Positions 6,635-27,890 of a DNA stretch of 56,310 nucleotides are shown piece after piece. The notes under the pieces were generated by a model, which saw nothing but the letters and a program-made list of their open reading frames with translations, did not search any database and was not told where the DNA came from. The position numbers were made by a program, and so were the translations under genes. The first letter of the stretch is position 1, and each line of letters begins with the position of its first letter. The DNA lies in NCBI GenBank assembly GCA_947176765.1, contig CAMWRX010000010.1, positions 1-56,310 of the forward strand, written 5' to 3'. This DNA comes from an uncultured bacterium. Lineage in GTDB: Bacteria > Bacillota > Clostridia > Oscillospirales > Oscillospiraceae.

Positions 6635-6671
6635 AGTCAGGCAGGTGGTTTTAGGGCTGAGTACGGTTAAT

Positions 6672-8419
<1,748 letters not shown>

Positions 8420-8543: not shown

Positions 8544-8577
8544 ACCAGCCCGCCGCATAGGACGGGCTGGTATTTTT
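8544..8577. terminator. Hairpin terminator between recombinase and amidoligase operon
   Basis: Perfect 9-bp stem (8544-8552 with 8563-8571, ACCAGCCCG/CGGGCTGGT), followed on the + strand by ATTTTT. On the minus strand, where the upstream operon ends at 8599, the tail is only TTCTC, so termination there is less certain. Confidence 0.6.
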
Positions 8578-8598
8578 AAGGGGCTCCCACCATAGGTT

Positions 8599-8832
8599 TT
8601 ACAACCGCTTAATTCCATCTACGCCATAGACAACACCGAGGGTGGAACCGTTGTCCCAATGTACGAACACGGTGCCAGTGTCATCCACCAGTTCCACTGT
8701 GCCGCGCTCACCAGGTGTGAACTTACTATAGGGATCATCCAGCCGGACGAGTTCCACGCGACATCCAGCCGGATAGACTTTCCGCACGATGTCTACCACC
8801 CATGGGCTGGGAAATTTGCTGTTACTTTCCAT
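8599..8832 (-). CDS. DUF4314 domain protein
   Basis: 77 residues. The body, PAGCRVELVRLDDPYSKF then GERGTVELVDDTGTVFVHWD and NGSTLGVVYGVD, matches the small DUF4314 family found in conjugative elements and phages of Firmicutes. Its fold looks like a small beta barrel. Its function is unknown. The ATG at 8832 overlaps the end of the preceding gene by 11 bases, so it is the last gene of a four-gene coupled operon. A GGGGG ribosome site precedes it. Confidence 0.75.
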   Translation of the reverse strand: MESNSKFPSPWVVDIVRKVYPAGCRVELVRLDDPYSKFTPGERGTVELVDDTGTVFVHWDNGSTLGVVYGVDGIKRL

Positions 8833-9553: not shown

Positions 9554-9554
9554 A

Positions 9555-11124: not shown

Positions 11125-11400
11125 ATTGACTTGCCCTCCTTCCATTTTTTGTTTGTTCAGAGGGCATCCACAGATGCGCCTCTAAACGAATGCGCACTGT
11201 GGCCGTCTGATTTGTCTACCTTGTGTCTAAATTTTTGCCTCCTTTCTTGCTTCGTATTTCCGCTGGCGGCGGTCGTCCAATGGCGATATGGACAACCACC
11301 GCTTTGCGGAAACACTTTTATAGGGAATGGTCGGCCTGTGCCCGCGGGCAACGACGAACGACCGATCTGTTGCTACCCAGTCTGGATGCGGACGGCGCTA

Positions 11401-11595
11401 TCAGGTCACACCAGCCCCTTCACTGTCACTGGAATCCATCATAGAGGCCTTTTCCTCTGCTTCCTTCTGCTGTGCGATGCTGATCGCAACCGCAATCAAA
11501 GCCCGCCCCAGTTTTTCTATATCGGGGTTGTCCCGGAACTCTGGTGTCACCCGTACATCGTGGGAAGCCATTGGTCGTCCACGTTTTTTATCCAT
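11401..11595 (-). CDS. Small hypothetical protein of a mobile element
   Basis: 64 residues starting MDKKRGRPMASHDVRVTPEF. AAAGGAG precedes the start, at good spacing. A basic RGRP start followed by an amphipathic helix resembles small accessory proteins in conjugative elements; I recognise no function. The stretch 11125-11400 upstream of the amidoligase shows no supported gene, and 11596-11714 holds only the leader of the next operon. Confidence 0.5.
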   Translation of the reverse strand: MDKKRGRPMASHDVRVTPEFRDNPDIEKLGRALIAVAISIAQQKEAEEKASMMDSSDSEGAGVT

Positions 11596-11714
11596 CTGGC
11601 TTCTCCTTTCCTGCCTTTTCTGGCGATTTAAGGAGGTTTTGGATGATTTTCTCTAGCATAATGTCCCTCCATCTCCGCCATGGCAAATGACATTTGAAAT
11701 AGGAGGAGAACATC

Positions 11715-13190: not shown

Positions 13191-13195
13191 CGGCC

Positions 13196-14725: not shown

Positions 14726-15424
14726 ATGCTGGAAGAATTGAAACGGCAGGTGCTGGAAGCAAACCTTTTACTGCCGAAACATGGTCTGGTCACCTTCACC
14801 TGGGGCAATGTGTCCGGCGTGGATCGTGAAAAGGGCCTGATGGTCATCAAGCCCTCCGGGGTGGAGTACGACGGCATGACTGCCGAGGACATGGTGGTAG
14901 TCAGCCTGGAAACTGGCGAAGTGGTGGAGGGCAAGTGGAAACCCTCCAGCGACACTAAAACCCACCTGGAGCTGTACAAGGCGTTCCCAGGGATTGGCGG
15001 CATCGTCCACACCCACAGCCCCCATGCGGTGGCCTGGGCCCAAGCGGCAGAGGACATCCCCTGCTTCGGCACCACCCATGCCGACTACTTCTACGGTTCC
15101 ATCCCCTGTACCCGCCAGTTGACCCGAGAGGAGCTGGAGGAGGACTACGAGAAAAACACAGGCGTGGTTATCGTGGAGACCTTCCGGGAGCGGTGCATTG
15201 AGCCGTCTGCCGTTCCCGGCGTGATCTGCGCCAGCCACGGCCCCTTCACCTGGGGCAGGGACGCGGCCCAGGCGGTGTACCATGCAGTGGTGCTGGAGGA
15301 AGTAGCCAAAATGGCCATCCTCACCCGGCAGGTGCGGCCCTCTGCCGTGCCGACCCCCCAGCGTATCCAGGACAAACACTACTTCCGCAAGCATGGCCCC
15401 AGCGCCTACTACGGACAAATGTAA
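14726..15424 (+). CDS. araD: L-ribulose-5-phosphate 4-epimerase
   Basis: 232 residues, the normal length. It resembles E. coli AraD along its whole length: [56 protein letters not shown], the zinc pair in [23 protein letters not shown], and SHGPFTWG with the third zinc histidine, ending AYYGQM. It converts L-ribulose-5-phosphate to D-xylulose-5-phosphate through retro-aldol chemistry, feeding the pentose phosphate or phosphoketolase route. It starts immediately after the kinase stop and is followed by a strong terminator, so it closes the operon. This is the most specific clue to the pathway. Confidence 0.95.
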
Positions 15425-15610
15425 AAATACTTTTTGGGCTTATCTTTCGGTAGACCAGGAAGCAATATTTGTCGTTCTCCGATTTTATTATAATAGCTGC
15501 TATGGCAATAAATGCTTTACTGGGAGCTATCTTTAGCCAAGACGGCTCCACAGTCACTCACTGATATGCCCCCAGATAAACCCTACAATCACTTAGACAT
15601 ATCCCCTCCA

Positions 15611-15650
15611 AAAGGTGTGCAAATGGCAAGGCCATTTGCACACCTTTTTT
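15611..15650 (+). terminator. Terminator of the arabinose-type operon
   Basis: A perfect 17-bp stem (15611-15627 with 15631-15647) with a 3-base loop and a T6 tail at 15645-15650. It is an unusually strong intrinsic terminator. Within the gap 15425-15796, it and the next hairpin are the only structures seen. Confidence 0.92.
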
Positions 15651-15651
15651 A

Positions 15652-15720
15652 TTCGACACCTTTCTTCACGGCCCGACAAAGCATCCCATTGGGCCGTGAA
15701 GAAAGGTGTCGAACCTTTTT
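15652..15720 (+). terminator. Second giant hairpin with T tail
   Basis: A perfect 23-bp stem (15652-15674 with 15691-15713), a 16-base loop and T5 at 15716-15720. It begins one base after the previous terminator's T tail. It may be a second terminator, or an inverted repeat left by an insertion. Confidence 0.75.
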
Positions 15721-15796
15721 ACCCCACTGCCGGGGGCCTCCGCTTCTGAAATCAAGCTTTTCACACCAGATTTCAGAAGAACAGGAGGTCTGCCCT

Positions 15797-16039
15797 ATGG
15801 CAGAAGGAAAAGAATGTTATATCCGGGTGCGTGGTACGCTTGTTGCCGTAACGCCCGACGTTTATCATGTTTGCCACCAAACCAACAACGCCATGAAACA
15901 GGCAAACGCTAACATTGACTTCTGCGGCATCCGCAACCTGCTCCACCTGTTGTCTGGGCAGGGCTTCACTGAGAATGAGCTGAAAAAGATCGCGGACAGG
16001 ATCGCCCGGAGTACAGGGGCGGACATCATTTTTTGTTGA
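15797..16039 (+). CDS. Small conjugative-element protein
   Basis: 80 residues starting MAEGKECYIRVRGTLVAVTP, with AGGAGG eight bases before the ATG. The first half resembles the start of small sigma-like regulators of Tn1549-type elements (the IRV-G-LV-V-VY pattern). The second half, LSGQGFTENELKKIADRIA then TGADIIFC, resembles another small protein of these elements. I can place it as mobile-element DNA, but not give it a function. It is followed at once by a truncated recombinase. Confidence 0.55.
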   Translation: MAEGKECYIRVRGTLVAVTPDVYHVCHQTNNAMKQANANIDFCGIRNLLHLLSGQGFTENELKKIADRIARSTGADIIFC

Positions 16040-16116
16040 CTTTCACCACTTGGTTTTCATAGCTATTGGGGCCAAGATGTGGTAATGTATGTTGCTGACA
16101 GGAGGAGGTGCAGACC

Positions 16117-16587
16117 ATGAGCGGACAGCCCCAAACCAACGGAAATCTGGCCCTGAATGACAAAAAAGTCATCGTGATCGAGGCGGCTCCGAAGCCGGAG
16201 GCAGCAAAGCTCCGGGTTGCGGCGTACTGCCGGGTCAGCTCCGACTCCACCGACCAGCAGAACTCCTTCATGGCTCAGCTCAACTACTACACCACGCTGA
16301 TCGGCTCCAAGGAAAACTGGACGCTGGCGGATCTGTATGCCGATGAGGGCATTTCCGGCACCTCTGCCCAGAAGCGCCCGGACTTCCAGCGGCTCCTCTC
16401 GGACTGCCGCAGGGGGCGGGTGGATAAGGTGCTGGTCAAGTCCATCTCCCGCTTCGCCCGCAACACCAGGGACTGCCTGGAAACCGTCCGGGAGCTAAAG
16501 TCCATCGGTGTAGGTGTGTGCTTCGAGGAACAGCACATCGACACCTCCAACATGAGCGGCGAGCTTCTCACCACGGTAACGCCTTAG
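16117..16587 (+). pseudogene. Truncated serine recombinase (resolvase domain only)
   Basis: 156 residues, where the family needs ~500 or more. The catalytic domain is intact at first: LRVAAYCRVSSDSTDQQNSF (serine in RVSS), DEGISGTSAQKRPDFQRLL, and VKSISRFARNTRDCLETV. The protein then runs HIDTSNMSGELLTTVTP and stops. The downstream sequence is unrelated, and the DNA-binding recombinase and zinc domains are missing. GGAGGAGG precedes the ATG at 16117. This looks like one end of a lost conjugative transposon (TndX/Tn4451-like), deleted at about 16575. Confidence 0.85.
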
Positions 16588-16676: not shown

Positions 16677-16748
16677 TGAGCAATACGAAAGCATTTGTTT
16701 CTGCAACGGGGTACAGCGCAAACCGATTCAGCATTTCAAAATATGGTA

Positions 16749-16777
16749 TTGACGCAACGTCAGAACGGACGTATACT
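16749..16777 (+). promoter_or_regulatory. Promoter and operator of tetR operon 1
   Basis: TTGACG (16749-16754), a 17-base spacer and TATACT (16772-16777). The palindrome TGACGCAACGTCA (16750-16762) overlaps the -35 box. It has the same form as the three sites before the second TetR gene at 18342-18398, so both operons probably answer to the same or cross-binding TetR proteins, with autorepression. Confidence 0.75.
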
Positions 16778-16859
16778 ATTTTGGCTGGCACCGCGTTAAA
16801 ATAAGATGCCGGTTAAATGATATTTCCGCTGGGAAATAGAGGAATTGAGGCGATATAAT

Positions 16860-17480
16860 ATGCCAAAAGGGTCTGTGGAACTGACAAATGCCCGGAAAGC
16901 AGAGATCATCAATGCCTGTGAAAAGCTGTACCAAACCATGAGTTTCAAAGAGATCACCATCAAAGAGATCGGCGCCGCCACCAGCTTTACCCGGACTTCC
17001 ATCTACAACTATTTCCAGACAAAGGAGGAAATCTTCCTTGCCTTGCTTCAGCGAGAATATGAGTTGTGGATTACCGGCTTGAAGAGTATGATAGAGCGGC
17101 ATAAAAAGCTGTCCGTGGATGAGTTTGCCGGGGAAATGGCACGGCTGCTGGAGGAGCGATCCCAGCTGTTGAAAATTATGTCCATGAACCACTACGACAT
17201 GGAGGAAAACAGCAGGCCGGAGCGTCTTTCCGAGTTCAAAACGGCATATGGGGAAGCCCTCCGGGTGGTAAGGGCGTGTCTGGATCAATACTTCCCCCAA
17301 ATGGCGGACGAGGATAAGCAGAATTTTATCTACACCTTTTTCCCCTTCATGTTCGGCATTTACCCCTATACCGTGGTGACGGAAAAGCAGCGAGCCGCGA
17401 TGGAAGAAGCAAAGGTAAACTACGTGTATATGACAATTTACGAAATATCGGCTTCCTGCATCAGGAAGCTGTTGAAATAA
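16860..17480 (+). CDS. TetR/AcrR family regulator (paralogue 1)
   Basis: 206 residues. The N-terminal helix-turn-helix is clear: IINACEKLYQTMSFKEITIK, then ATSFTRTSIYNYFQTKEEIF. The C-terminal ligand domain is all-helical and ends with a C-terminal part carrying YTVVTEKQRAAMEEA. The ATG at 16860 is preceded by GAGG. An upstream TTG at 16845 is possible but unneeded. It is closely related along its whole length to the regulator at 18422-19048 (SFKEITIKEI, FTRTSIYNYFQTKEEIFLAL, MSMN...DME, EKQR.AME). It leads a two-gene operon with the CMD-cupin protein and probably represses itself. The ligand is unknown. Confidence 0.92.
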   Translation: MPKGSVELTNARKAEIINACEKLYQTMSFKEITIKEIGAATSFTRTSIYNYFQTKEEIFLALLQREYELWITGLKSMIERHKKLSVDEFAGEMARLLEERSQLLKIMSMNHYDMEENSRPERLSEFKTAYGEALRVVRACLDQYFPQMADEDKQNFIYTFFPFMFGIYPYTVVTEKQRAAMEEAKVNYVYMTIYEISASCIRKLLK

Positions 17481-17500
17481 TCATTTTGGAGGTATACGAT

Positions 17501-18250
17501 ATGGCGGTAAAGCAGACGGCGGGCAGGCGTGACTTGGGGGAGTTCGCCCCCAAATTTGCCCAATTGAATGACGATGTACTGTTCGGTGAGGTATGGGGCC
17601 GGGAGGATCAGCTGTCCCTCCGGGACCGCAGCCTGGTCACGGTGGTGGCGTTGATGTCCCAGGGGCTGACCGATTCCTCCTTCCGCTATCACCTTGAGTC
17701 CGCGAAGAAGAACGGAATCACCAAAACGGAGATCGCGGAAATCCTGACCCACGCGGCCTTTTACGCGGGCTGGCCCAAAGCGTGGGCGGCGTTCCGCATG
17801 GCAAAGGAGGTCTGGGCCGGGGAAACCGATGGGAGCGGCAGGGCGGCCCATGAAAACGCCATGGTGTTCCCTATCGGCGAACCCAACGACGCCTTTGCCC
17901 AGTATTTCATCGGCCAAAGCTATCTCGCACCCGTTTCCAAGGATCAGGTGGGCATTTTCAACGTGACCTTTGAACCGGGCTGCCGCAACAACTGGCATAT
18001 CCACCATGCGGACCAGGGCGGCGGGCAGATTCTCATCTGCGTCGCCGGACGGGGCTACTATCAGGAGTGGGGCAGAGAGGCCGTAGAGATGAAGCCGGGC
18101 GACTGCGTCAATATCCCCGCCGGCGTCAAGCATTGGCACGGCGCGGCTCCGGACAGCTGGTTCTCCCATCTGGCTGTAGAAGTCCCAGGCGTGAACGGCT
18201 CCAATGAGTGGCTGGAGCCTGTGACAGACGAGGTCTATGCCGGCCTGTAA
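17501..18250 (+). CDS. Carboxymuconolactone decarboxylase-like / cupin fusion protein
   Basis: 249 residues with two domains. The first ~105 residues are CMD-like: LSLRDRSLVTVVALMSQGLT, then GITKTEIAEILTHAAFYAGW. The CxxC of AhpD-type peroxidase relatives is absent, leaving His and Trp there. Residues ~130-249 are a cupin: GIFNVTFEPGCRNNWHIHH, then GRGYYQEWG and IPAGVKHWHGAA, supplying the metal-binding histidines. Such fusions occur widely in anaerobes beside aldo/keto reductases and flavodoxins, with no firmly known substrate. The ATG at 17501 has GGAGG upstream and follows the TetR gene by 20 bases; it ends at a strong terminator. Confidence 0.88.
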   Translation: MAVKQTAGRRDLGEFAPKFAQLNDDVLFGEVWGREDQLSLRDRSLVTVVALMSQGLTDSSFRYHLESAKKNGITKTEIAEILTHAAFYAGWPKAWAAFRMAKEVWAGETDGSGRAAHENAMVFPIGEPNDAFAQYFIGQSYLAPVSKDQVGIFNVTFEPGCRNNWHIHHADQGGGQILICVAGRGYYQEWGREAVEMKPGDCVNIPAGVKHWHGAAPDSWFSHLAVEVPGVNGSNEWLEPVTDEVYAGL

Positions 18251-18282
18251 GCAGGTTTCGCAAATTTTCATAGAACGAAGGC

Positions 18283-18315
18283 GGCGGTCCCTGTCCAGGA
18301 CCGCCGATTTTTTTA
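18283..18315 (+). terminator. Terminator of tetR operon 1
   Basis: A 9-bp stem (18283-18291 with 18299-18307, CGGCGGTCC/GGACCGCCG) followed by ATTTTTTT. It separates the first TetR operon from the second. Confidence 0.88.
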
Positions 18316-18340: not shown

Positions 18341-18398
18341 TTGACATCATGTCAGCTATGTGCTATGATTCTGACATAGCGTCACTGACGCAATGTCA
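18341..18398 (+). promoter_or_regulatory. Promoter and triple operator of tetR operon 2
   Basis: TTGACA (18341-18346), a 17-base spacer and TATGAT (18364-18369). Three 13-bp sites of the form TGAC-N5-GTCA are present: TGACATCATGTCA (18342-18354, over the -35), TGACATAGCGTCA (18372-18384) and TGACGCAATGTCA (18386-18398). The last differs by one base from the site at 16750. Sites over the -35 and just past the start point are typical for TetR repression. Confidence 0.85.
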
Positions 18399-18421
18399 GA
18401 ACAAGGGCAGGAGATGAGGAC

Positions 18422-19048
18422 ATGCCGAAAGACTCTGCGCACTTGACTCAGGCACGGCGGGAGGAAATCATCAGCGCCTGTGCCAAGCTGTATGAAACCA
18501 TGAGCTTCAAAGAGATCACCATCAAAGAGATCGCGGCGTTCACATCCTTTACCCGCACGTCGATTTATAACTATTTCCAGACGAAGGAAGAAATCTTCCT
18601 GGCGCTGCTGCAGCGAGAGTACGAGGCATGGACGGCGGATTTGAACTCGCTCCACCCCAGCGGAAGCGGCCCCCACCGTCTGGAACTGGCCGAGCAGATC
18701 TCCCGCACACTGGAACGGCGGGAGCGCCTGTTGAAGCTTCTCTCCATGAACCTGAACGACATGGAGGCGAACAGCGGCATGGAGCATCTGGTCGAATTCA
18801 AAAGGGCCTATGGGGCGTCGGTCCAAGCCATACAAGACTGCCTGCGGCGATTCTGCCCGGAGATGGAGGCAAAGGAGCGGCGGGAGTTCACGTTTTCATT
18901 CCTGCCCCTGATCTATGGAATATACCCGTATGCGGCTGTGACTGAAAAGCAGAGAGATGCCATGGAGCAGGCGCAAATCGACTTTCAATATCTGTCCATT
19001 TATGAGATCACCTTGATCGGGGCACAAAAATTATTGGGGGTTTTATGA
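18422..19048 (+). CDS. TetR/AcrR family regulator (paralogue 2)
   Basis: 208 residues, closely related to the TetR at 16860. It has the same helix-turn-helix (SFKEITIKEIAAFTSFTRTS, then IYNYFQTKEEIFLALLQREY), a similar core (LSMNLNDMEANSGMEHLVEF) and the same near-C-terminal YAAVTEKQRDAMEQA. Its ATG follows a GGAGATGAGG ribosome site, and its stop overlaps the next gene's start (ATGA). It heads the long flavodoxin operon and likely controls it through the three operators upstream. Confidence 0.92.
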   Translation: MPKDSAHLTQARREEIISACAKLYETMSFKEITIKEIAAFTSFTRTSIYNYFQTKEEIFLALLQREYEAWTADLNSLHPSGSGPHRLELAEQISRTLERRERLLKLLSMNLNDMEANSGMEHLVEFKRAYGASVQAIQDCLRRFCPEMEAKERREFTFSFLPLIYGIYPYAAVTEKQRDAMEQAQIDFQYLSIYEITLIGAQKLLGVL

Positions 19049-20088
19049 TGGAGTACACGAAATTGGGCAATTCCGAATTGTCCGTTTCCCGCATCTGCCT
19101 GGGCTGCATGGGCTTTGGCGACGCCGGGAACGGCCAGCACTCCTGGACCATTGACGAGGAACACTCTCGCGAGATCATCAAGCGGGCGCTGGAGTTGGGT
19201 GTGAACTTCTTCGACACCGCCATCGGCTACCAGAGCGGTACCAGCGAGCAGTATGTGGGCCGGGCCGTCCGAGACTTCGCCAAGCGGGAGGACATGGTGG
19301 TAGCCACCAAGTTCCTTCCCCGCACGCAGGACGAGATTGCGGCGGGCATCAGCGGCCAGCAGCATATCGAGCGGATGCTGAACAAAAGCCTGGAAAACCT
19401 GGGCCTGGACTATGTGGACCTGTATATCTACCATATGTGGGACTACCAGACCCCACTTTATGAGATTATGGACGGGCTGAACAACATGGTCAAGGCGGGC
19501 AAGGCCCGGTATATCGGTATTTCCAACTGCTTCGCGTGGCAGCTTGCCAAGGCCAACGCGTTGGCGGAACAGGAGGGCTTCGCCAAATTCGTGTCCATCC
19601 AGGGCCACTACAACCTGATTTTCCGGGAGGAAGAACGGGAGATGGCAAAACTCTGCGCAGAGGACAACATCGCGATGACGCCCTACAGTGCCCTGGCGGG
19701 CGGACGGCTTTCCAAGCGCCCCGGCGAAACCTCCAAGCGGCTCCAGGAGGACAGCTACGCCAAGCTGAAATATGACGGCACCGCCGAGCAGGACGGCGAG
19801 ATCATCCGCCGGGTGGCGGAGCTGGCGGACAAGCACGGCGTCACTATGACGGAAATCTCCCTGGCGTGGCTGCTGACCAAGGTGGCGTCCCCGGTGGTGG
19901 GGGCCACCAAGCTCCACCATATCGAGGGCGCGGCCAAGGCGGTTGACCTGGCTTTGACGGCGGAGGAGCTGGCCTGGCTGGAGGAACCCTATGTCCCCCA
20001 CGCCCTGGTGGGCGTGATGGCGCAGAACACCGCCGCCACTGCCAAGAAGCCCCATGTTTGGAGCACCGGAAATCAGGAAATCAAGTGA
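19045..20088 (+). CDS. Aldo/keto reductase
   Basis: 347 residues of an NADPH-dependent (beta/alpha)8 oxidoreductase. Motifs seen: MEYTKLGNSELSVSRICLGC, NFFDTAIGYQSGTSEQYVGR (Asp and Tyr of the catalytic tetrad), VVATKF (catalytic Lys), YVDLYIYHMWD (catalytic His), IGISNCF, and a C-terminal VVGATKLHHIEGA that binds the cofactor phosphate. No signal peptide is present, so it is cytosolic. Two adjacent ATGs (19045 and 19048) overlap the TetR stop. The substrate is unknown. It could remove a reactive carbonyl sensed by the TetR, or feed reducing power to the system; both are guesses. Confidence 0.93.
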   Translation: MMEYTKLGNSELSVSRICLGCMGFGDAGNGQHSWTIDEEHSREIIKRALELGVNFFDTAIGYQSGTSEQYVGRAVRDFAKREDMVVATKFLPRTQDEIAAGISGQQHIERMLNKSLENLGLDYVDLYIYHMWDYQTPLYEIMDGLNNMVKAGKARYIGISNCFAWQLAKANALAEQEGFAKFVSIQGHYNLIFREEEREMAKLCAEDNIAMTPYSALAGGRLSKRPGETSKRLQEDSYAKLKYDGTAEQDGEIIRRVAELADKHGVTMTEISLAWLLTKVASPVVGATKLHHIEGAAKAVDLALTAEELAWLEEPYVPHALVGVMAQNTAATAKKPHVWSTGNQEIK

Positions 20089-20106
20089 TTACGGGAGGAA
20101 TTTAAT

Positions 20107-20436
20107 ATGAGCAAAAAATTAGTAGCATACTTCTCGGCCAGCGGCACCACAGCCACGGCGGCAAAAACGTTTGTCGAGGACTACGACACCATCTTCCTGG
20201 GCTTTCCCATCTGGTGGTATGTGGCCCCCACCATCATCAACACCTTCCTGGAAAGCTATGACTTTACCGGCAAGACGATTATCCTGTTCGCAACCTCCGG
20301 CGGCAGTGACTTCGGCGGAACTGTAGCCGCTTTGAAAGACAGCGCCCCTGGAGCGGTGATCCGGGAGGGAAAGCTGCTGAATGGGCGGCAGTCCAAAGAA
20401 TCCCTCGCCGCCTGGATCGACAGCTTGAACGTGTAA
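20107..20436 (+). CDS. Flavodoxin with an internal deletion
   Basis: 109 residues, where flavodoxins of this type have ~155-180. It starts normally with the FMN-phosphate strand (KLVAYFSASGTTATAAKT), then jumps straight to YDTIFLGFPIWWYVAP. It continues normally: IINTFLESYDFTGKTI, TSGGSDFGGTVAALK, and a proper C-terminus. About 50-60 residues, covering the second strand and the segment between it and the third, are missing in frame. It has no signal peptide. The ATG has GGGAGGA upstream. Without the missing part FMN binding is doubtful, so it may be a decaying gene or a dimerising mini-protein. Confidence 0.8.
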   Translation: MSKKLVAYFSASGTTATAAKTFVEDYDTIFLGFPIWWYVAPTIINTFLESYDFTGKTIILFATSGGSDFGGTVAALKDSAPGAVIREGKLLNGRQSKESLAAWIDSLNV

Positions 20437-20449
20437 CAGGAGGCACAAT

Positions 20450-21148
20450 ATGAAACGAACACTTTCCATCTTTTTGACGTTGGCCCTTATGCTCACCCTC
20501 GCCGCCTGTGGCTCTACATCCGGGCAGGGCAGTACCGGCTCCAATCCCACCCCCACCCCAGAGGGAAACACCCTGGCTTCGACCGCACCGGAAGCAACCC
20601 CAGAAAACCAGCCGGAGGATACCACACCGGCGGATAGCGAAACACCCGGAGAAACGAGCGACGGCGGGAAGAAAATCCTGATCGCCTACTTCTCCGCCAC
20701 CAACAACACGGAGCACATTGCGAATCTCTTAAGTGAAATTCTGGATGCCGACCTCTACGAGATCACGCCGGAAACGCCCTATACCAGCGCCGATCTGAAC
20801 TATAACACCGACTGCCGCGCCAACCGGGAACAGAATGATCCAACTGCCCGTCCCGCCATCTCTGGCAGTGTGGACAACATGGAGCAGTACGACGTGATTT
20901 TCCTGGGCTATCCCATTTGGTGGGGCGAGGCCCCCAGGATCATCAACACCTTCCTGGAGAGCTATGACCTGAGTGGGAAAACCATCGCGCCTTTCTGCAC
21001 CTCCGCCAGCAGTCCTTTGGGTTCCAGCGCCAGAAACCTCCAAGGTCTGGCAGGCAATGCGGCCTGGCTGGAGGGACATCGGTTCAGCGGCGGAGCTTCT
21101 TCCGCTGATGTACAGTCCTGGGTGGACAGTCTGAATCTGAACGGATAA
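20450..21148 (+). CDS. Flavodoxin-domain lipoprotein A
   Basis: 232 residues. A lipoprotein signal ends in LAAC (Cys20), followed by a ~50-residue Pro/Thr/Glu-rich linker and a flavodoxin domain from about residue 74 (KILIAYFSATNNTEHIANLL). The domain has YTSADLNYNTDCRANREQN, YDVIFLGYPIWWGEAP and GKTIAPFCTSASSPLG. It would be anchored on the outer face of the membrane, which is unusual because flavodoxins are normally cytosolic electron carriers. It is nearly a duplicate of the flavodoxin domain at 23.3-23.8 kb. AGGAGG precedes the ATG. FMN loading outside the cell is unproven. Confidence 0.92.
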   Translation: MKRTLSIFLTLALMLTLAACGSTSGQGSTGSNPTPTPEGNTLASTAPEATPENQPEDTTPADSETPGETSDGGKKILIAYFSATNNTEHIANLLSEILDADLYEITPETPYTSADLNYNTDCRANREQNDPTARPAISGSVDNMEQYDVIFLGYPIWWGEAPRIINTFLESYDLSGKTIAPFCTSASSPLGSSARNLQGLAGNAAWLEGHRFSGGASSADVQSWVDSLNLNG

Positions 21149-21152
21149 TCAT

Positions 21153-21839
21153 ATGAAAACAAAACAAGCTGTTAAAATCTGCGTAGACGCTGCGATGACC
21201 TTGGGAATGCTGTTCCTGATGGGCTATCACCTGTGGGGAGACACCGCCCACGAATGGGTGGGCGCGGGGCTGTTCGTCCTGTTTATCCTCCACCACATTC
21301 TCAACTGGCGCTGGTGGACGGGGCTGTTTAAGGGCAGATATACCGCCGCCCGTGTGCTGCAAACGGTGGTCAATTTGCTTACCCTGGCGGCGATGGTGGG
21401 ACTGATGGTCAGCGGTGTGATCCTGTCCAGCAAAGTATTTGCGTTTCTTCCAATCAGGGGCCACATGGCCTTTGCCCGGAGACTGCACATGGCCGCCTCC
21501 CACTGGGGCTTTCTCCTGATGACGGCGCACCTGGGACTGCATTGGGGAGCGTTGCTGGGAATGGCACGGAAAGCGGGACAAACGCAGCTTTCGGGCAGGC
21601 CCAGCTCCCCATTGCCGACGATTCTTGGAGCGTTGATTGCGGTCTATGGGGTGGCCGCGATGGTCAAGCGCGATTTTGCCACCTATCTGTTTTTGCGGGC
21701 GGAATTTGTTTTCCTGGATTTCAGTGAATTAAAGGTCCTGTTTTATCTGGACTATCTGGCAATCATGGGGACGTTTATTTTCCTGTCCTACTATGCGATG
21801 AAGCTCTTGAGAAAACGCAAAGGAGGGAAAACGCTGTGA
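21153..21839 (+). CDS. DUF4405 membrane protein, cytochrome-b-like
   Basis: 228 residues with about six hydrophobic segments. Histidines occur where heme ligands would be expected: LMGYHLWGD, LFILHHILNWRWW, FARRLHMAASHWGFLL and MTAHLGLHWG. This fits the DUF4405 family, which resembles diheme cytochrome b subunits. It could carry electrons from the cytosolic or quinone side to exported acceptors; that is inference. The gene starts four bases after lipoprotein A with no clear ribosome site, so it is probably translated by coupling, and its stop overlaps the next gene's GTG. Confidence 0.85.
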   Translation: MKTKQAVKICVDAAMTLGMLFLMGYHLWGDTAHEWVGAGLFVLFILHHILNWRWWTGLFKGRYTAARVLQTVVNLLTLAAMVGLMVSGVILSSKVFAFLPIRGHMAFARRLHMAASHWGFLLMTAHLGLHWGALLGMARKAGQTQLSGRPSSPLPTILGALIAVYGVAAMVKRDFATYLFLRAEFVFLDFSELKVLFYLDYLAIMGTFIFLSYYAMKLLRKRKGGKTL

Positions 21840-22585
21840 AAAGGTGGATCGCACTCTTACTTGCCGCCGCCACTTTGCTGACAACAGCAGGCTGTGGAAG
21901 GCAAGCAAGCCAAGAGCCGACTGCTACACCTGAGAACCCTCCAGCTACCGACAGCCAGCAGACTGCCAATCAGCCGGAAACCGCTTCGTCCCCGGTCAAT
22001 GTTTCAACGACCACACCAGAGCAGGAAACACCCCGCATCCTGATCGCCTACTTCACCTGGGCTGACAACACCATTGTAGAGAATCCAAGCGCCGTGGATG
22101 TGGATGCCACTACCTCGGCCAGCGTTCTCGCCCCAGGCAACGCCGCGAAGATTGCCGGCTGGATTCAGCAGGAAGTGGGCGGCGACCTGTTCTCTATTGT
22201 GGTGTCGGAGCCGTATTCCAGCGACTATGACGAGTGCCTGGACCGGGCGGCGGACGAAAAAGCGGCCAAAGCCCGCCCCGCGCTGGTCAATCATGTGGAT
22301 GGTATGGAGAACTACGACATCGTATTTCTCGGTTTTCCGAATTGGTGGTACACCCTTCCCATGGCGGTCCTCAGCTTCGTGGAGGAATACGACTTTTCCG
22401 GCAAGACCGTCGTTCCCTTCTGCACCCATGGAACCGGCGGATTGGCCGGCACCATCCGCGATCTGACCGCCGCGCTCCCCGAAGATGTGACGATCCTTGA
22501 CCCCATCGGGGTCTATCGGCCGGAGGTAGACAGCTCCCGCCCTGCCGTCCAGGAGTGGGTCGCGGGGCTGAACCTGGATATTTGA
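21836..22585 (+). CDS. Flavodoxin-domain lipoprotein B
   Basis: 249 residues. The lipoprotein signal ends TTAGC (Cys20), then comes a ~45-residue linker rich in Pro, Thr and Gln, then a flavodoxin domain from about residue 67 (RILIAYFTWADNT). The domain continues with IVVSEPYSSDYDECLDRA, YDIVFLGFPNWWYTLP, GKTVVPFCTHGTGGLAGT. It belongs to a different subtype from lipoprotein A: it has the extended loop before the second strand, and PNWW instead of PIWW. The start is GTG at 21836, after AGGAGG and overlapping the previous stop by four bases (GTGA). Confidence 0.92.
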   Translation: MKRWIALLLAAATLLTTAGCGRQASQEPTATPENPPATDSQQTANQPETASSPVNVSTTTPEQETPRILIAYFTWADNTIVENPSAVDVDATTSASVLAPGNAAKIAGWIQQEVGGDLFSIVVSEPYSSDYDECLDRAADEKAAKARPALVNHVDGMENYDIVFLGFPNWWYTLPMAVLSFVEEYDFSGKTVVPFCTHGTGGLAGTIRDLTAALPEDVTILDPIGVYRPEVDSSRPAVQEWVAGLNLDI

Positions 22586-22632
22586 TAAAAAAGCGCAGCA
22601 TGAACGTAATTGTTACTGAGGAGATGTACAAT

Positions 22633-23793
22633 ATGAAAAAATTCAAACAGCTCGGCTCTTTCATTTTTGCGCTGGCCATGGTAGTTGCTTTGGCTGTCCC
22701 AGTTTATGCCGCCGTGGAGGACACCGGGTATTCCGATGTGGACGCCGGGGCTTCCTATGCGGAGGCCGTGATCTATTGCCGGGAGCACGAGCTGATGAAC
22801 GGCGTTGGCAATGGCCGCTTTGACCCGGAGGGGACCCTCACCCGCGCCGAGCTGGCCACCGTCCTGTGGCGGCTGGAGGATAAGCCTGTGGTCAACTACC
22901 TCATGCAGTTTTCCGATGTGGACTCTGATACCTGGTATACCGAGGCGGTGCGCTGGGCCGCATCCGAGAAAGTCATGGGCGGCTATGGCGGCGGTATGTT
23001 CGGACGTAAGGACCCGGTGACCCGCCAGGACATGGTGACCGCTCTCTGGCGCTATGCCGACAGACCCGACACCGAGGCCGGGGAGGACTTCAAGGATGAG
23101 GCCGACATCGCCAGCTATGCCTCCGCTGCCGTGGATTGGGCCGTAGCCAACGGCATCGCGGGCCCGGTATCCGATGGTGTTTTCGCTCCGAGGACCAATG
23201 CTACCCGCGCCCAGATTGCCATTGCGCTGATGAACTACGACCGCACAAAGCAGACCACTCCTACTGCTCCTACCGAGCCTGACCCCACCCCCAGCGAGGG
23301 AGGCCGCGTTCTGATTGCTTACTTCTCCGTTACCAACAATACGGAAGGAATCGCCAACCATCTAAAGGAGATCCTGGGCACCGACCTCTATGAGATCGTG
23401 CCGGAGACGCCCTATACCAGCGCCGACCTGAACTACAACACCGACTGCCGCGCCAACCGGGAACAAAACGACGCCTCCGCCCGTCCCGCCATCTCGGGCG
23501 GCGTGGACAACATGGTGCAGCACGACGTGATCTTCCTGGGTTACCCCATCTGGTGGGGCCAGGCCCCGAAGATCATCAGCACCTTCCTGGAGAACTATGA
23601 TCTCAGCGGGAAAACCATCGTGCCCTTCTGCACCTCCGGCAGCAGCCCCATCGGTTCCAGTGCGATAAATCTCCATTCCCTCGCCCCCGCCGCCACCTGG
23701 CTGGACGGCCAGCGGTTCAGCGGCAGCGCCTCCCGCTCCACGGTGGAGAGTTGGGTAAACAGCTTGGTACAGGTACTCAAACCTGCGGCCTGA
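22633..23793 (+). CDS. SLH-anchored flavodoxin
   Basis: 386 residues. A signal peptide (MKKFKQLGSFIFALAMVVAL ... YAA) is followed by three SLH repeats (TLTRAELATVLWRLED, PVTRQDMVTALWRYAD, NATRAQIAIALMNYD), a short Pro/Thr linker and a complete flavodoxin domain from about residue 224 (RVLIAYFSVTNNTEGIANHL). The flavodoxin part is very close to that of lipoprotein A (YTSADLNYNTDCRANREQN). SLH repeats bind pyruvylated secondary wall polymers, so this flavodoxin should sit in the cell wall or S-layer. I know of no characterised protein with this architecture. The start is at 22633 because GAGGAG precedes it and it gives a clean signal peptide. Confidence 0.93.
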   Translation: MKKFKQLGSFIFALAMVVALAVPVYAAVEDTGYSDVDAGASYAEAVIYCREHELMNGVGNGRFDPEGTLTRAELATVLWRLEDKPVVNYLMQFSDVDSDTWYTEAVRWAASEKVMGGYGGGMFGRKDPVTRQDMVTALWRYADRPDTEAGEDFKDEADIASYASAAVDWAVANGIAGPVSDGVFAPRTNATRAQIAIALMNYDRTKQTTPTAPTEPDPTPSEGGRVLIAYFSVTNNTEGIANHLKEILGTDLYEIVPETPYTSADLNYNTDCRANREQNDASARPAISGGVDNMVQHDVIFLGYPIWWGQAPKIISTFLENYDLSGKTIVPFCTSGSSPIGSSAINLHSLAPAATWLDGQRFSGSASRSTVESWVNSLVQVLKPAA

Positions 23794-23810
23794 ATCCTGG
23801 ACGCCAAAGA

Positions 23811-23840
23811 AGCCCCGTCCCGTTTGGGGTGGGGCTTTTT
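23811..23840 (+). terminator. Internal hairpin with T tail inside the flavodoxin operon
   Basis: GCCCCGTCCC and GGGGTGGGGC form an imperfect 10-bp GC stem around a short loop, followed by TTTTT. It lies between the SLH-flavodoxin and the FGE-flavodoxin genes. It may attenuate expression of the last four genes, or mark where separate modules were joined. Confidence 0.6.
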
Positions 23841-23867
23841 CGTATGAAATTGGAGTTGACAAATACG

Positions 23868-25343
23868 ATGAAACGAATATTTACACTGCTTTTGAGCCTC
23901 CTGCTTGTGCTTCCCTTGGCAAGCTGCGGTGGCACAGAACAACAGAACCTCTCCACTCCCTCTGAACCGGCCCAGATACCGAACCAGATTGCCACTGTAC
24001 CGTCAGACAACACATCCCCCGAGATCGCGCCGCCGGAAGAATTTATTTTGATAAACGGCGGGACCTTCCAGATGGGCAGCCCGGATTCGGAAGCATGGCG
24101 CTCAGAGGATGAAACCGCCCATACTGTCACCGTCAGCGATTTCTACATCAGCAAATTTGAACTCACCCAGGCCGAATATCAAGCGGCCATGGGCAGGGAT
24201 CCCAGCTTCTTCACCGGCGATGACCTCCCGGTGGAAAACATTTCCTGGATGGACGCCATTCACTATTGCAATACTCGCAGCACCCAGGAGGGCCTGACCC
24301 CGGCCTATACGGTGAATGGGCAGAGCGTCTCCTGGGATCAGAGCGCCAATGGTTACCGTCTACCTACGGAAGCCGAGTGGGAATACGCCTGCCGCGCCGG
24401 AACGGAAACGCCTTTCAACACAGAAACTTCCATCAGCGCGGACGAGGCCAACTATTGGGGCCACTACCCCTATTTGATCGAGGACAACTACTTCTCCCAG
24501 GGGAATCTGGAAACCAAGCCCGGCGTATACCGCCAAACCACCGTGGCGGTGGGCAGCTTTGAGCCCAACGCCTGGGGTCTCTACGATATGCACGGGAATG
24601 TGGGCGAATGGGTATGGGATTGGTACGGTAGCTATGATACGGCTGCGCAGACCGACCCTACCGGCCCTGTCAGTGGCACACGGCGGGTATATCGGGGCGG
24701 CGGCTGGAACGACTTCGCCAAAAATCTCCGCTCCGCTTACCGGGCCACCCTGCCCCCAGACAGCGCCAGCTTTAACCTGGGACTGCGGCTGGTACGGAAC
24801 GCGGTCAGCGGCGGCGGGAGTGTGGAATCGTCCTCCGCCCAGGCCGATGGGCAGACGGACGGTAATATCCTGATTGCCTATTTCTCCTGGGGCGGCAACA
24901 CCAGAGGGATCGCCGCAGAGATCCAGCGTCAAACCGGGGCGGAGCTGTTTGAAATTCAGATGGTGACGCCTTACTCCACGGATTACAATACCGTTTTGGA
25001 TCAGGCGCAGCAGGCGCAAAATGCCCAGGACCGCCCGGAACTGTCCACCCATGTGGAGGACATGAGCCAATACGACACGATCATCCTGGGTTATCCCAAC
25101 TGGTGGGCCTCCATTCCCATGCCCATTGCCTCGTTCCTGGAAGAATATGATTTTTCCGGCAAGACCATTGTCCCGTTTTGCAGCCACGGCGGCGGACGCT
25201 TCGGCCAGAGCTTGACGGCAATCACGAAGCTGGTGCCAGATGCCGTTTTAGGCGAGGGCTTGGCGGTTTCCTACTCCGGCGGCTCCGGCCTGTCGGGCGA
25301 TGTGACCGCATGGCTGGAAGAAAATAATATCCCGGCAAATTAA
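23868..25343 (+). CDS. FGE-sulfatase (SUMF1-type) / flavodoxin fusion lipoprotein
   Basis: 491 residues. The lipoprotein signal ends PLASC. Residues ~58-310 are a formylglycine-generating-enzyme/SUMF1-type domain: FILINGGTFQMGSP, YISKFELTQAEYQAAMG, LPVENISWMDAIHYCNTRS, YRLPTEAEWEYACRAG, WGLYDMHGNVGEWVWDW and VYRGGGWNDFAKNLRSAYR. Residues ~332-491 are a flavodoxin (NILIAYFSWGGNTRGIAAEI, YDTIILGYPNWW) of the lipoprotein-B subtype. FGE-fold proteins are often only ligand- or sugar-binding scaffolds; I do not see the usual copper-binding cysteine pair near the C-terminus, so enzymatic activity is doubtful. ATG at 23868 was chosen for the signal peptide; an in-frame ATG at 23844 is an alternative. 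Confidence 0.9.
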   Translation: MKRIFTLLLSLLLVLPLASCGGTEQQNLSTPSEPAQIPNQIATVPSDNTSPEIAPPEEFILINGGTFQMGSPDSEAWRSEDETAHTVTVSDFYISKFELTQAEYQAAMGRDPSFFTGDDLPVENISWMDAIHYCNTRSTQEGLTPAYTVNGQSVSWDQSANGYRLPTEAEWEYACRAGTETPFNTETSISADEANYWGHYPYLIEDNYFSQGNLETKPGVYRQTTVAVGSFEPNAWGLYDMHGNVGEWVWDWYGSYDTAAQTDPTGPVSGTRRVYRGGGWNDFAKNLRSAYRATLPPDSASFNLGLRLVRNAVSGGGSVESSSAQADGQTDGNILIAYFSWGGNTRGIAAEIQRQTGAELFEIQMVTPYSTDYNTVLDQAQQAQNAQDRPELSTHVEDMSQYDTIILGYPNWWASIPMPIASFLEEYDFSGKTIVPFCSHGGGRFGQSLTAITKLVPDAVLGEGLAVSYSGGSGLSGDVTAWLEENNIPAN

Positions 25344-25363
25344 ATTTTTGGAGGTTGACAACA

Positions 25364-25915
25364 ATGAAAAAACAAATCGGCAATATGCTGGCCCTCTATC
25401 CCACTCCCCTTGTCGTTGTGGGCACCATGGTGCAGGGCAAGCCCAACTGGGTGCTGGTGGGCCACATCGGCATCATCGGCCATGACCGGGTGATGGTCAG
25501 TCTTGCCAAGCCCCACTATACCAACCAGGGGATCAAAGCCACCCGCGCCCTGTCCATCAACATCGTTGACGAGGCCATGCTGCCCAAGGCAGACTACACC
25601 GGTTGCGTCAGCGGGAGCAAGGTGGATAAGTCCAAGCTGTTCCAGTACCAGATTGGGGAGAGCGGTGTGCCGATCATCAACGAGGCGCCTGTGTCCATGG
25701 CCTGTACCGTGGAGGACATCTATGAGACGGAGGGCTTCGAGAGCTTCATCTGTAAAATTGCGGCCACCTATGCGGAGGAATCCGTGCTGACGGCGGAAGG
25801 GAAGATCGACTACCGCACCCTCAAACCGGTGCTGTTTGAGTTCCCCACCTACGAATATCTGAAAACCGGCGATGTGATTGGGAAATGCAGGAGCATCGGG
25901 AAACAGGAAGGATGA
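25364..25915 (+). CDS. Flavin reductase / FMN-binding split-barrel protein
   Basis: 183 residues. The FlaRed-type split barrel shows LYPTPLVVVGTMVQGKPN, then MVSLAKPHYTNQGIKATRAL (phosphate contact), SINIVDEAMLPKADYTGCVS, and a conserved Glu-rich C-terminal half. These proteins reduce or bind FMN in the cytosol using NAD(P)H. In this operon it could reduce flavin for export or for the membrane step; that is inference. The ATG at 25364 follows GGAGG; its stop overlaps a possible ATG of the next gene. Confidence 0.85.
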   Translation: MKKQIGNMLALYPTPLVVVGTMVQGKPNWVLVGHIGIIGHDRVMVSLAKPHYTNQGIKATRALSINIVDEAMLPKADYTGCVSGSKVDKSKLFQYQIGESGVPIINEAPVSMACTVEDIYETEGFESFICKIAATYAEESVLTAEGKIDYRTLKPVLFEFPTYEYLKTGDVIGKCRSIGKQEG

Positions 25916-25920
25916 CCACA

Positions 25921-26961
25921 ATGAAAAAATGGATTGCATGGAGTCTCGCCACTGCGCTTTGCTTCAGCCTGGCGGCGTGTGGTTCCAGTGAAGCCCCTGG
26001 CAGCAGTTCCGGTTTGCCAACGGAGAATTCGTCCGCACCCTCACCAAAATTCCCCGCCACGGCAAGCCCTGCGCCCGCAGACAGCGAAGCCGCCAGTGGG
26101 CCCGCGCCTGTGGTTTTTATGACCACGGATCTTTCCTCCGACGGCCTGATTGCAATCTATCAGGCGCTGAACGCCAAACCCAGCGGACGGATTGCCGTCA
26201 AGCTGTCTACCGGCGAGCCCGGGAGCAATTATCTCCGCACCGACCTGATCGGGCCGCTGGTCCAGTCTTTGGATGCTCCCACCATCGTGGAGTGCAACAC
26301 AGCCTACGGCGGCTCTCGCTCAAATACTGCCATGCACTACCAGGTGGCGGAGGACCACGGCTATACCGCCATCGCAGCGGTTGACATTATGGATGAGAAC
26401 GGCTCCATCACCCTGCCGGTGGAGGGCGGCTCCAACCTGACAGAGAACTATGTGGGCGCAAACTTTACCAATTATGATTATTTCATTGTCCTGTCCCACT
26501 TCAAAGGCCACGCCATGGCGGGCTTTGGCGGGGCTATCAAAAATATCTCCATCGGCATTGCGTCCGCGCAAGGAAAAAGCCATATCCACAGCGGCGGCAT
26601 TGGCGGCAGTATGTGGGGCGGCGACCAGGACGCTTTTCTCGAATCTATGGCAGAAGCGGGCAAATCTGTGGTGGACGCGCTGGACGGCAATATTCTTTAC
26701 ATCAACGTGATGAACCGTTTGAGCGTGGACTGCGACTGTGACGGAAATTCCGCTGAGCCGGATATGCACGACATTGGCATCCTGGCCTCCTATGATCCGG
26801 TGGCGCTGGACCAGGCGTGTGTTGATCTGGTCTACGCCGCGGAGGACGGCGGGTCGCTCGTCAAGCGCATGGAATCCCGTAATGGCATTCACACGTTGGA
26901 ACACGCGGAGAAAATTGGCCTGGGCAGCCGCACCTATGAACTGGTAAGCATTGACGGCTGA
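25921..26961 (+). CDS. DUF362-domain lipoprotein
   Basis: 346 residues with a lipoprotein signal ending SLAAC (Cys20) and a ~40-residue low-complexity linker. The body matches DUF362: VVFMTTDLSSDGLIAIYQAL, GEPGSNYLRTDLIGPLVQSL, the central SHFKGHAMAGFGGAIKNISI, and DCDCDGNSAEPDMHDIGILA followed by DPVALDQACVDLVY. DUF362 proteins often accompany ferredoxins and act in redox or metal contexts; no ferredoxin module is present here. The exported form places it beside the flavodoxins. ATG at 25921 (AGGAAGG nine bases upstream) was chosen over 25912. Confidence 0.85.
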   Translation: MKKWIAWSLATALCFSLAACGSSEAPGSSSGLPTENSSAPSPKFPATASPAPADSEAASGPAPVVFMTTDLSSDGLIAIYQALNAKPSGRIAVKLSTGEPGSNYLRTDLIGPLVQSLDAPTIVECNTAYGGSRSNTAMHYQVAEDHGYTAIAAVDIMDENGSITLPVEGGSNLTENYVGANFTNYDYFIVLSHFKGHAMAGFGGAIKNISIGIASAQGKSHIHSGGIGGSMWGGDQDAFLESMAEAGKSVVDALDGNILYINVMNRLSVDCDCDGNSAEPDMHDIGILASYDPVALDQACVDLVYAAEDGGSLVKRMESRNGIHTLEHAEKIGLGSRTYELVSIDG

Positions 26962-26987
26962 GAACGAAACCGCAAAGGAGGTTCCCT

Positions 26988-27890
26988 ATGCTGGATATTC
27001 TACGGCGGGAAACGATCTATCTCTGGTACTATTTCAGCGTCCAGCTGGAGCAGATTTTTGGATATTGGGTGCTGGGCATGGTGCTGGGGTCGGCCATTTC
27101 GGTCTTTGCCAAAGATAAGCTCCATGGACTGTTCCAGGCCCTGTGCGGGAAGCGGCTGGGGGCGCTGGGCGTGATCCCGGCCAGCCTTCTCGGCATTGCA
27201 TCCCCGTTGTGTATGTACGGCACCATCCCCATCGCCGCATCTTTTTCCCGCCAGGGGATGCGTCATGACTGGCTTGCCGCCTTTATGATGTCGTCCATCC
27301 TGCTCAATCCCCAGCTCATTTTATACAGTGCCGCATTAGGCCCGACCGCTCTCTGGGTGCGGATCATTTCCTGCTGTATCTGCGGCGCTGTGGCGGGATG
27401 GCTGGTGGGATGCTTCTTCCCTCAGCAGAGTTTTTTTGACTTCACCGGCTTCGACGATCCCGTCAGCCGCGACGTCGATTCCAACCTGCTGATCCGGTTT
27501 CTCAAAAACCTGGGCCGGAACATAAAAGCCACCGGCCCCATGTTCCTGCTGGGCGTGGCCCTGTCCGCCCTGTTCCAGCGGTATGTTCCGGCAGAGTGGG
27601 TGGGCAGTCTCTTTGGAGAAAACGAGGGCTTTGGCGTACTGCTGGCCGCTACCATCGGCGTTCCCCTTTACGCCTGCGGCGGAGGGACCATCCCGCTGCT
27701 CCAGGCATGGTTGATGGACGGTATGAGCATGGGCAGCGCGGCATCCTTCATGATTACGGGCCCCGCCACAAAAATCACCAATCTGGGCGCGTTAAAAATC
27801 GCGTTGGGCGCGAAGCATTTCGCCTTGTATCTGGCCTTTGTCATTGCTTTTTCTCTTGTGACAGGGCTGGTTGTGAACTGGATCGTCTGA
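26988..27890 (+). CDS. Permease of the YraQ/ArsP-like (DUF318) family
   Basis: 300 residues, about eight membrane segments in two related halves. Each half has the family hallmark of glycine-rich small-residue segments: LGIASPLCMYGTIPIAASFS in the first, and VPLYACGGGTIPLLQAWL in the second. These permeases export metal or metalloid compounds or thiol-type substrates in characterised cases. The ASPLCMYG and ACGGGTIP cysteines recall the metal-binding cysteines of ArsP. As the last gene of the flavodoxin operon, it might export a flavin-related or metal cofactor; that is unproven. AGGAGG precedes the ATG. Confidence 0.82.
   Translation: MLDILRRETIYLWYYFSVQLEQIFGYWVLGMVLGSAISVFAKDKLHGLFQALCGKRLGALGVIPASLLGIASPLCMYGTIPIAASFSRQGMRHDWLAAFMMSSILLNPQLILYSAALGPTALWVRIISCCICGAVAGWLVGCFFPQQSFFDFTGFDDPVSRDVDSNLLIRFLKNLGRNIKATGPMFLLGVALSALFQRYVPAEWVGSLFGENEGFGVLLAATIGVPLYACGGGTIPLLQAWLMDGMSMGSAASFMITGPATKITNLGALKIALGAKHFALYLAFVIAFSLVTGLVVNWIV

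Follow-up and report, generated by a model that had tools for sequence, protein, structure and literature searches.

A TetR-controlled gene cluster of an Oscillospiraceae bacterium that pairs a DUF4405 membrane protein with exported flavodoxins: a candidate module for extracytosolic electron transfer

We describe here a gene cluster encoded in a stretch of 56,310 nucleotides from an uncultured bacterium of the Oscillospiraceae (hereafter the window), which is contig C10 of a draft genome of 2.67 Mb that is 96.1% complete. The cluster combines a cytochrome-b-like membrane protein of the DUF4405 family with four exported proteins that carry Flavodoxin_4 domains, behind genes for regulators of the TetR family, and we read it with fair confidence as a repressor-controlled, extracytosolic electron-transfer module. 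The strongest new evidence tying DUF4405 to a surface flavodoxin is a natural fusion of the two in relatives of the window.

All features given below for the window lie on its plus strand, where two units stand back to back, each headed by its own gene of the TetR_C_34 type. The second unit keeps to the same strand throughout, from the tetR gene that starts at 18422 to a permease gene that ends at 27890, with adjacent genes either overlapping by 4 bases or separated by gaps of 4 to 74 bases. Flavodoxin_4 is matched by Pfam in five of its proteins, and further matches to DUF4405, Flavin_Reduct, DUF362, aldo/keto reductase and ArsP_1 agree with the gene content listed in the first-pass annotation of this DNA. 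The count of four exported flavodoxins given there also stands: with signals read from the sequence by eye and pattern, FldA (20450..21148), FldB (21836..22585) and FldD (23868..25343, a domain resembling the formylglycine-generating enzyme (FGE) followed by Flavodoxin_4) carry lipoprotein-type signals, and FldC (22633..23793) has a Sec-type signal and three SLH repeats before its Flavodoxin_4 domain. The flavodoxin domains of FldC and FldA are 77% identical, so that near-copies of one domain are attached to the membrane in the one case and to the wall in the other. The structural matches of FldA are the Flavodoxin_4 structures 4ici and 3klb, of which 3klb is a complex with flavin mononucleotide (FMN).

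The DUF4405 protein (21153..21839) matches PF14358 with a score of 42.7 bits, over a cut-off of 26.7. Its histidines H33, H47, H112 and H126 are invariant in all 28 aligned sequences, the others being 31-51% identical to the window protein. The family had been assigned earlier to the cytochrome b family (PMC5898192), and experiments on an Oscillospiraceae homologue have established DUF4405 as a heme-b cytochrome that pairs with flavinylated Flavodoxin_4 proteins (Huang, Meheust, Barquera and Light 2024, PMC11334425). By analogy, the window protein would bind heme b, and the four histidines presumably correspond to the published heme ligands.

In four loci of relatives (L062, L100, L102 and L119; L102 is by its title a Bacteroides metagenome-assembled genome, for which misbinning is possible), DUF4405, an extra hydrophobic helix, an FGE-like domain and Flavodoxin_4 follow each other in one open frame; no mention of such a fusion was found in the parts of PMC11334425 that were consulted. 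In a sample of 391 genomes of the class, a single fusion was present among the 19 FGE-flavodoxin matches listed, which came from 15 genomes, our own included. Full-length fusion matches occurred in at least 5 of 247 genomes of the family to which that fusion genome belongs (itself included), while at E 1e-60 the matches listed for a phylum sample of 398 genomes were confined to our own genome, where the proteins are unfused, and to the fusion genome of the class sample. Since at most 4 (class), 4 (family) and 2 (phylum) candidates were scored per genome, these counts are minima; the fusion recurs, but it is uncommon.

An AlphaFold2 (AF2) model of the fused chain of L119, the homologue from which we take the topology of the window protein, has six long helices in the DUF4405 part (predicted local distance difference test score, pLDDT, about 90) and a seventh at residues 239-257, before the FGE part. 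The numbers of lysine plus arginine residues in its successive loops are 1, 0, 3, 0, 4, 1, 6 and 1 (helix ends from AF2, that of helix 6 set by hand), and because positive charges thus alternate between loops, the FGE-flavodoxin part can be placed outside. By pattern test none of the four named fused proteins has a flavinylation motif. A structure search with the whole fused model was dominated by the flavodoxin part (568-727) and identified no relative of known structure for the DUF4405 part, which was not searched alone. A further frame from the family of the window's host (L172, 8059-9414) jumps from the FGE part of a DUF4405-FGE protein to the last flavodoxin residues, and is apparently a fusion gene with an internal deletion.

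The association of the two families extends to unfused genes. DUF4405 is matched in 39 of 300 genomes of the family, which yields 43 places (46 match rows, from which the window's own was left out together with two that are second fragments of counted genes), and Flavodoxin_4 lies within 6 kb at 30 of them. With 189 Flavodoxin_4 matches in 150 genomes of the family, none of them in the two other genomes of the same genus in that sample, and a mean genome of 2.2 Mb, we estimate that about 0.3 of the 43 places would have such a neighbour by chance. An accidental accumulation of flavodoxins, or a neighbourhood peculiar to this strain, is therefore rejected. Taken together, the natural fusions and this neighbourhood link DUF4405 and Flavodoxin_4 to each other.

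What else recurs around DUF4405 allows a different interpretation, in which the cluster is a detoxification operon: the exported flavodoxins would independently reduce quinones, azo or nitro compounds at the surface, drawing on diffusible reduced flavin or on an exported reductant, and DUF4405 would serve another partner. Genes for TetR regulators, flavin reductases, aldo/keto reductases (AKR) and carboxymuconolactone-decarboxylase-like domains fused to cupin (CMD/cupin) indeed recur around DUF4405 and Flavodoxin_4, with AKR near 22 of the 43 places, CMD/cupin near 12 and TetR_C_34 near 7; less frequent are ArsP and SLH (5 each), FGE and ApbE (2 each). DUF362 is near 8 of the 43 by a strict whole-locus count (the strict listing names 10 loci, two of which, L190 and L192, belong to the FGE-flavodoxin set), a looser count of 16 being inflated by signal-peptide matches. 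In addition, four of the seven longer FGE-flavodoxin loci that were read (L189 to L192, two of them short whole contigs) are without DUF4405. Against these points stand the direct fusions and the 30 of 43 places with Flavodoxin_4 nearby, and we regard the detoxification operon as unlikely.

Conservation of gene order, which the first-pass annotation had put forward as a check, is borne out in kind: the set recurs well beyond this strain, with variation in the exact order, although DUF4405 was found in none of five other sampled genomes of the same genus. The neighbourhood and architecture profiles on which these statements draw were built from the window and loci L038 to L057. Clusters of the L119 type, with the order flavin reductase, TetR, AKR, cytosolic flavodoxin, AKR, lipoprotein flavodoxin and DUF4405-FGE-flavodoxin, are close to the window's set without being identical in order. 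Genes for ApbE stand close to the DUF4405/flavodoxin genes in relatives L043 and L051; L043 has in a row (8817-12894) an insertion-type flavodoxin lipoprotein, DUF4405, ApbE, in a frame that also holds an alpha/beta hydrolase match, and another flavodoxin lipoprotein, and so resembles the published type of cluster. A second pair of a Flavodoxin_4 lipoprotein and DUF4405 is encoded in our own genome (contig C2; L038, 6585-11868). Near it are genes for LysR regulators and for an aldo/keto reductase with a ferredoxin domain, and a frame that matches aldo/keto reductase, DUF362 and hexapeptide families.

FldB differs from the other exported flavodoxins by an insertion between beta1 and alpha1 that contains the sequence DATTSAS (D90 to S96; 22103..22123), a predicted ApbE flavinylation site. 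Neither D90 nor S96 varies among 27 aligned sequences (window included, the others 33-62% identical to FldB), and the same holds for a smaller alignment (n = 8). In the AF2 model of FldB (pLDDT 83, predicted template-modelling score, pTM, 0.72) the motif sits between the strand 68-72 and the helix 102-114, and the model matches the Flavodoxin_4 structures 4ici, 4j8p, 3klb and 3edo, with FMN complexes in 3klb and 3edo. An insertion at the equivalent place is flavinylated by ApbE in two Flavodoxin_4 homologues studied by Huang and colleagues (PMC11334425). The published motif is of the type [S/T]GA[S/T]; FldB reads T-S-A-S. On this basis we predict that FMN is attached covalently to S96 of FldB by the single ApbE of the genome, which is encoded on contig C34 with a lipoprotein-type signal. 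The absence of an FmnB-like gene, reported in the first-pass annotation, thus holds for the cluster and not for the genome, ApbE being of the FmnB family. As other likely substrates of this ApbE we name, by our own reading, an RnfG-like protein and a further FMN_bind protein; the two FMN_bind matches of the genome are both on other contigs, and the window has none. On contig C46 (L059, 82-1704) a TetR-like and an NADPH-dependent-FMN-reductase-like gene (names again by reading) precede one for a small FMN_bind protein with the sequence DAISGATNSS, possibly another small flavinylation system.

Residues about 60-312 of FldD match PF03781 and the structures 2y3c and 1y1e, the best solved match of this domain being the Treponema surface protein TvpA (2y3c). 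The human formylglycine-generating enzyme has its active-site cysteine pair, C336 and C341, near the C-terminal end of the domain; aligned to it, FldD reads GGGWNDFAKNLRSAYR, and the pair is absent in FldD and in eight full relatives. The idea that FldD is itself a formylglycine-generating enzyme was therefore rejected. The domain recurs with flavodoxin in several arrangements: besides the DUF4405 fusion, the 19 matches listed in the class sample include three plain lipoproteins (the window's among them), five flavodoxin-FGE-flavodoxin proteins and one FGE-flavodoxin-flavodoxin protein. Eight of the 19 carry an N-terminal region of about 150 residues, which we take to resemble a copper-amine-oxidase-N wall domain. 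The remaining match, in L156 (1009-4182), is an SLH-anchored protein of 1058 residues with the order SLH-flavodoxin-FGE-flavodoxin-flavodoxin, and so has three flavodoxin domains beside a single FGE-like one. Chains with two or three flavodoxin domains are compatible with a relay at the surface.

The control region indicates how the cluster may be switched. Regulators 1 (16845..17480, with a TTG start as listed and a later ATG possible) and 2 (18422..19048) are 56% identical to each other and match PF17929 (TetR_C_34). In front of the second gene lies a promoter-like site, TTGACA-17-TATGAT (18341-18369; 11 of 12 positions, with TG before the second hexamer), and the region 18341..18398 also holds three TGAC-N5-GTCA palindromes (18342-18354, 18372-18384 and 18386-18398), that is, three of four operators within 57 bases across this promoter. 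The fourth, TGACGCAACGTCA (16750-16762), overlaps the -35 element of the promoter-like site of the upstream unit (16749-16777; the whole region, 16745..16777). Genome-wide, the pattern TGACRYNRYGTCA is found four times, in each case ahead of one of the two tetR genes, and its reversed control not at all; as the pattern was derived from these same four sites, the real test is that there are no further sites. Among relatives, TGAC-N5-GTCA was present in the 230 bases tested upstream of 10 of 14 tetR homologues (two of the 14 being one gene met in two loci, L029 and L165), mostly in pairs or triplets with a spacing of 32-37 bases, whereas of 2800 stretches drawn at random from the same loci 107 contained it. 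Four of the 14 have no operator in the tested stretch; the pair of L119 is placed further upstream of tetR. The TetR_C_34 proteins are putative binders of TGAC-N5-GTCA operators.

The upstream unit consists of tetR and a CMD/cupin gene (17486..18250), and because this unit (16845-18250) has the same operator, the regulon comprises at least two adjacent operons and is wider than first delimited. Neither this unit with its operator nor the insertion of FldB nor the FGE-like domain of FldD had been recorded in the first-pass annotation, which described one same-strand operon. The same-strand run from 18422 to 27890 is real. Its unity is doubtful, since a terminator-like hairpin followed by T5 stands between FldC and FldD (23812..23835; free energy -24.7 kcal/mol, z -2.78, with equally stable shuffles in 2 of 200), so that the run is probably not one uninterrupted operon and would amount to two transcription units within the larger two-operon regulon; the last four genes, from FldD on, may form a separate unit or be reached by partial read-through. 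Another terminator-like hairpin (18282..18306) separates the two tetR units. The remaining genes of the second unit encode a cytosolic AKR (19045..20088), a cytosolic flavin reductase-like protein of PF01613 (25364..25915), a DUF362 lipoprotein (25921..26961) and an ArsP_1 family permease (26988..27890).

The genome has no match to the UbiA family (control, 14 of 14), and menaquinone and ubiquinone are therefore probably absent; with a genome that is 96.1% complete, the absence is strong, not final. From the probable lack of quinones a cytosolic flavin or NAD(P)H donor is indicated, and a quinol donor to DUF4405 was set aside. The flavin reductase Fre has been reported as a potential donor to MsrQ (PMC5676040), to which DUF4405 is structurally similar (PMC11334425), and by this analogy the PF01613 protein of the cluster is a candidate electron donor to DUF4405. 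The likeness to the MsrPQ system does not extend to its other half, as a molybdopterin domain of the MsrP type is not among the Pfam matches of the cluster. The PF01613 protein is presumably not of the Fre family.

A number of observations weigh against the electron-transfer reading and should be considered together. Besides the lack of DUF4405 in the five other sampled genomes of the genus and the FGE-flavodoxin loci without DUF4405, a flavin reductase is near only 8 of the 43 DUF4405 places, and 13 of the 43 have no Flavodoxin_4 within 6 kb; most of the 13 are weak matches or at contig ends, but the matches of L054, L056 and L057 are strong and far from the ends of their contigs. No role is assigned to the FGE-like domain, and the AF2 model of the L119 chain is poor in its FGE part, with a pTM of 0.43 for the whole chain. 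Neither apbE nor a flavin exporter is among the Pfam domains of the cluster. By pattern test, the flavodoxin domains of FldA, FldC and FldD contain neither [ST]GA[ST] nor D..[ST].A[ST] (the sole flavinylation-pattern match in FldC falls within the SLH part), and because three of the four exported flavodoxins lack a covalent site, their retention of FMN outside the cell is unexplained. Finally, no ferrochelatase match was found in the genome (control, 8 of 14), although it has two cytochrome-type DUF4405 genes; this suggests that the heme of DUF4405 would have to come from outside the cell or from a route that does without ferrochelatase.

With respect to the missing covalent sites, it can be seen from a sample of relatives (79 loci, from the best 80 of at least 588 confirmed relatives) that FldA, FldC and FldD have company. 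The flavinylation motif was present in 43 of 140 flavodoxin domains (domains above E 1e-10 or without a recognizable first strand were excluded; at least one of the 43, DYIAAAT in L074, resembles a chance match). A lipobox pattern, by which alone export was judged, lies upstream of 37 of the 43 domains with the motif and of 33 of the 97 without it. In this best-scoring sample, exported Flavodoxin_4 without the insertion therefore looks common, which may be set beside the remark in PMC11334425 that extracytosolic flavodoxins show signs of flavinylation and cytosolic ones do not.

Another reading is that the exported flavodoxin folds are not redox carriers at all and bind a ligand other than FMN, such as scavenged heme or a substrate. 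The loss of FMN outside the cell has been raised as a problem in print (PMC11334425), the missing ferrochelatase would fit a need for scavenged heme, and the structures matched by the flavodoxin part of the fused protein include a flavodoxin with bound heme, 8g64. The closest structures, however, include the FMN complexes 3klb and 3edo, and the insertion of FldB makes sense only with a flavin; a non-FMN ligand appears to us very unlikely.

It may also be asked whether, in this strain, the cluster is a cargo of reduced function, either in decay or of recent acquisition. The short cytosolic flavodoxin (20107..20436; 109 aa), listed as a flavodoxin in the first-pass annotation, turns out to be an internal-deletion derivative: the first strand is kept and 50 alignment columns that are filled in 10 of 10 full-length rows (nine distinct genes) are then gone, and it is probably a remnant rather than a working flavodoxin. 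Just upstream of the first tetR gene (16108-16587) a frame of 159 residues corresponds to a serine recombinase in the N-terminal resolvase domain alone, and may be a trace of an old insertion event. The lack of DUF4405 in the five genomes of the genus and the apparently deleted fusion gene of L172 point in the same direction. Yet the remaining genes of the run have open frames that match their respective families, the regulatory sites are in place, and the G+C content of the run (0.579) is near that of the rest of the window (0.572 for 1-16000 plus 28001-56310), which does not mark it as foreign. We give decay or recent acquisition very little credence.

The kind of system is not new: the core pair of DUF4405 and flavinylated Flavodoxin_4 in bacteria of the Oscillospiraceae type is already published (PMC11334425). 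The clusters described there, which include an Oscillospiraceae example, share with ours the cytochrome and flavodoxin families and an insertion like that of FldB; ours differs in that it has no apbE, is under TetR control, and adds three exported flavodoxins without the insertion, one anchored by SLH repeats and one fused to an FGE-like domain. Apart from that core pair, the titles and abstracts listed in one library on exported or extracytosolic flavodoxins, ApbE, DUF4405, FGE and CMD/cupin/TetR describe neither this cluster nor the fusion. As far as these titles and abstracts show, what is new is the exported set that lacks flavinylation, with its partners of the SLH and FGE-like types, along with the natural fusion, the chains of several flavodoxins and the operator.

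Flavin-based extracellular electron transfer of the Listeria type depends on the genes for Ndh2, PplA, FmnB and EetA/EetB. It resembles our system in that Gram-positive surface flavoproteins are fed from the cytosol, with an ApbE-family enzyme in the window's genome too. In the window there is no PplA-like FMN_bind protein; our system has flavodoxins as its carriers and a cytochrome-type protein for the membrane step. The fold of the formylglycine-generating enzyme and of the surface protein TvpA is shared by FldD without the catalytic cysteine pair.

These results can be combined in the following mechanism. Cytosolic NAD(P)H would reduce the PF01613 flavin reductase or a similar donor, and the hemes of DUF4405 would carry the electrons across the membrane. 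Outside, the electrons would pass to flavodoxins at growing distance from the membrane, FldB and FldD and then FldA and FldC, with FldC, held in the wall by its SLH repeats, as the outermost holder of the domain near-identical to that of FldA. Substrates of the outer flavodoxins would be small molecules outside the cell, for instance quinone-like, nitro or other electrophilic compounds. A related compound present in the cytosol would release the TetR repressors, and the AKR and CMD/cupin proteins would handle the same or related compounds there. The acceptor and inducer steps are guesses from gene content. We infer the electron flow, its donor and direction, and the presence of FMN in FldA, FldC and FldD. 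The path from the cytosol through a cytochrome-b-like membrane protein to FMN proteins outside, as already proposed from the sequence, is supported by the published heme-b identity and Flavodoxin_4 pairing of DUF4405 (PMC11334425), and by the natural fusions, the histidine quartet and the neighbourhood conserved beyond the strain.

More tentatively, and with less than even confidence, we suggest that the relay is ApbE-optional, running in quinone-less anaerobic Clostridia from DUF4405 directly to a tethered flavodoxin with non-covalent FMN, as in the DUF4405-FGE-flavodoxin chain, and on to lipoprotein and S-layer flavodoxins, some of them with two or three flavodoxin domains per chain, from the membrane to the surface. 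If so, the statement in print that signs of flavinylation mark extracytosolic flavodoxins (PMC11334425) would need to be qualified. In the natural fusion, heme and outside flavodoxin belong to a single chain, so that transfer from the one to the other could be measured directly, and the operator offers a handle on the inducer and thereby on the likely substrate. If the electron-transfer reading is true, quinone-less gut-type anaerobes would own a dedicated, ligand-switched route for electrons onto surface flavoproteins, part of which would work without the covalent flavin attachment thought to prevent flavin loss.

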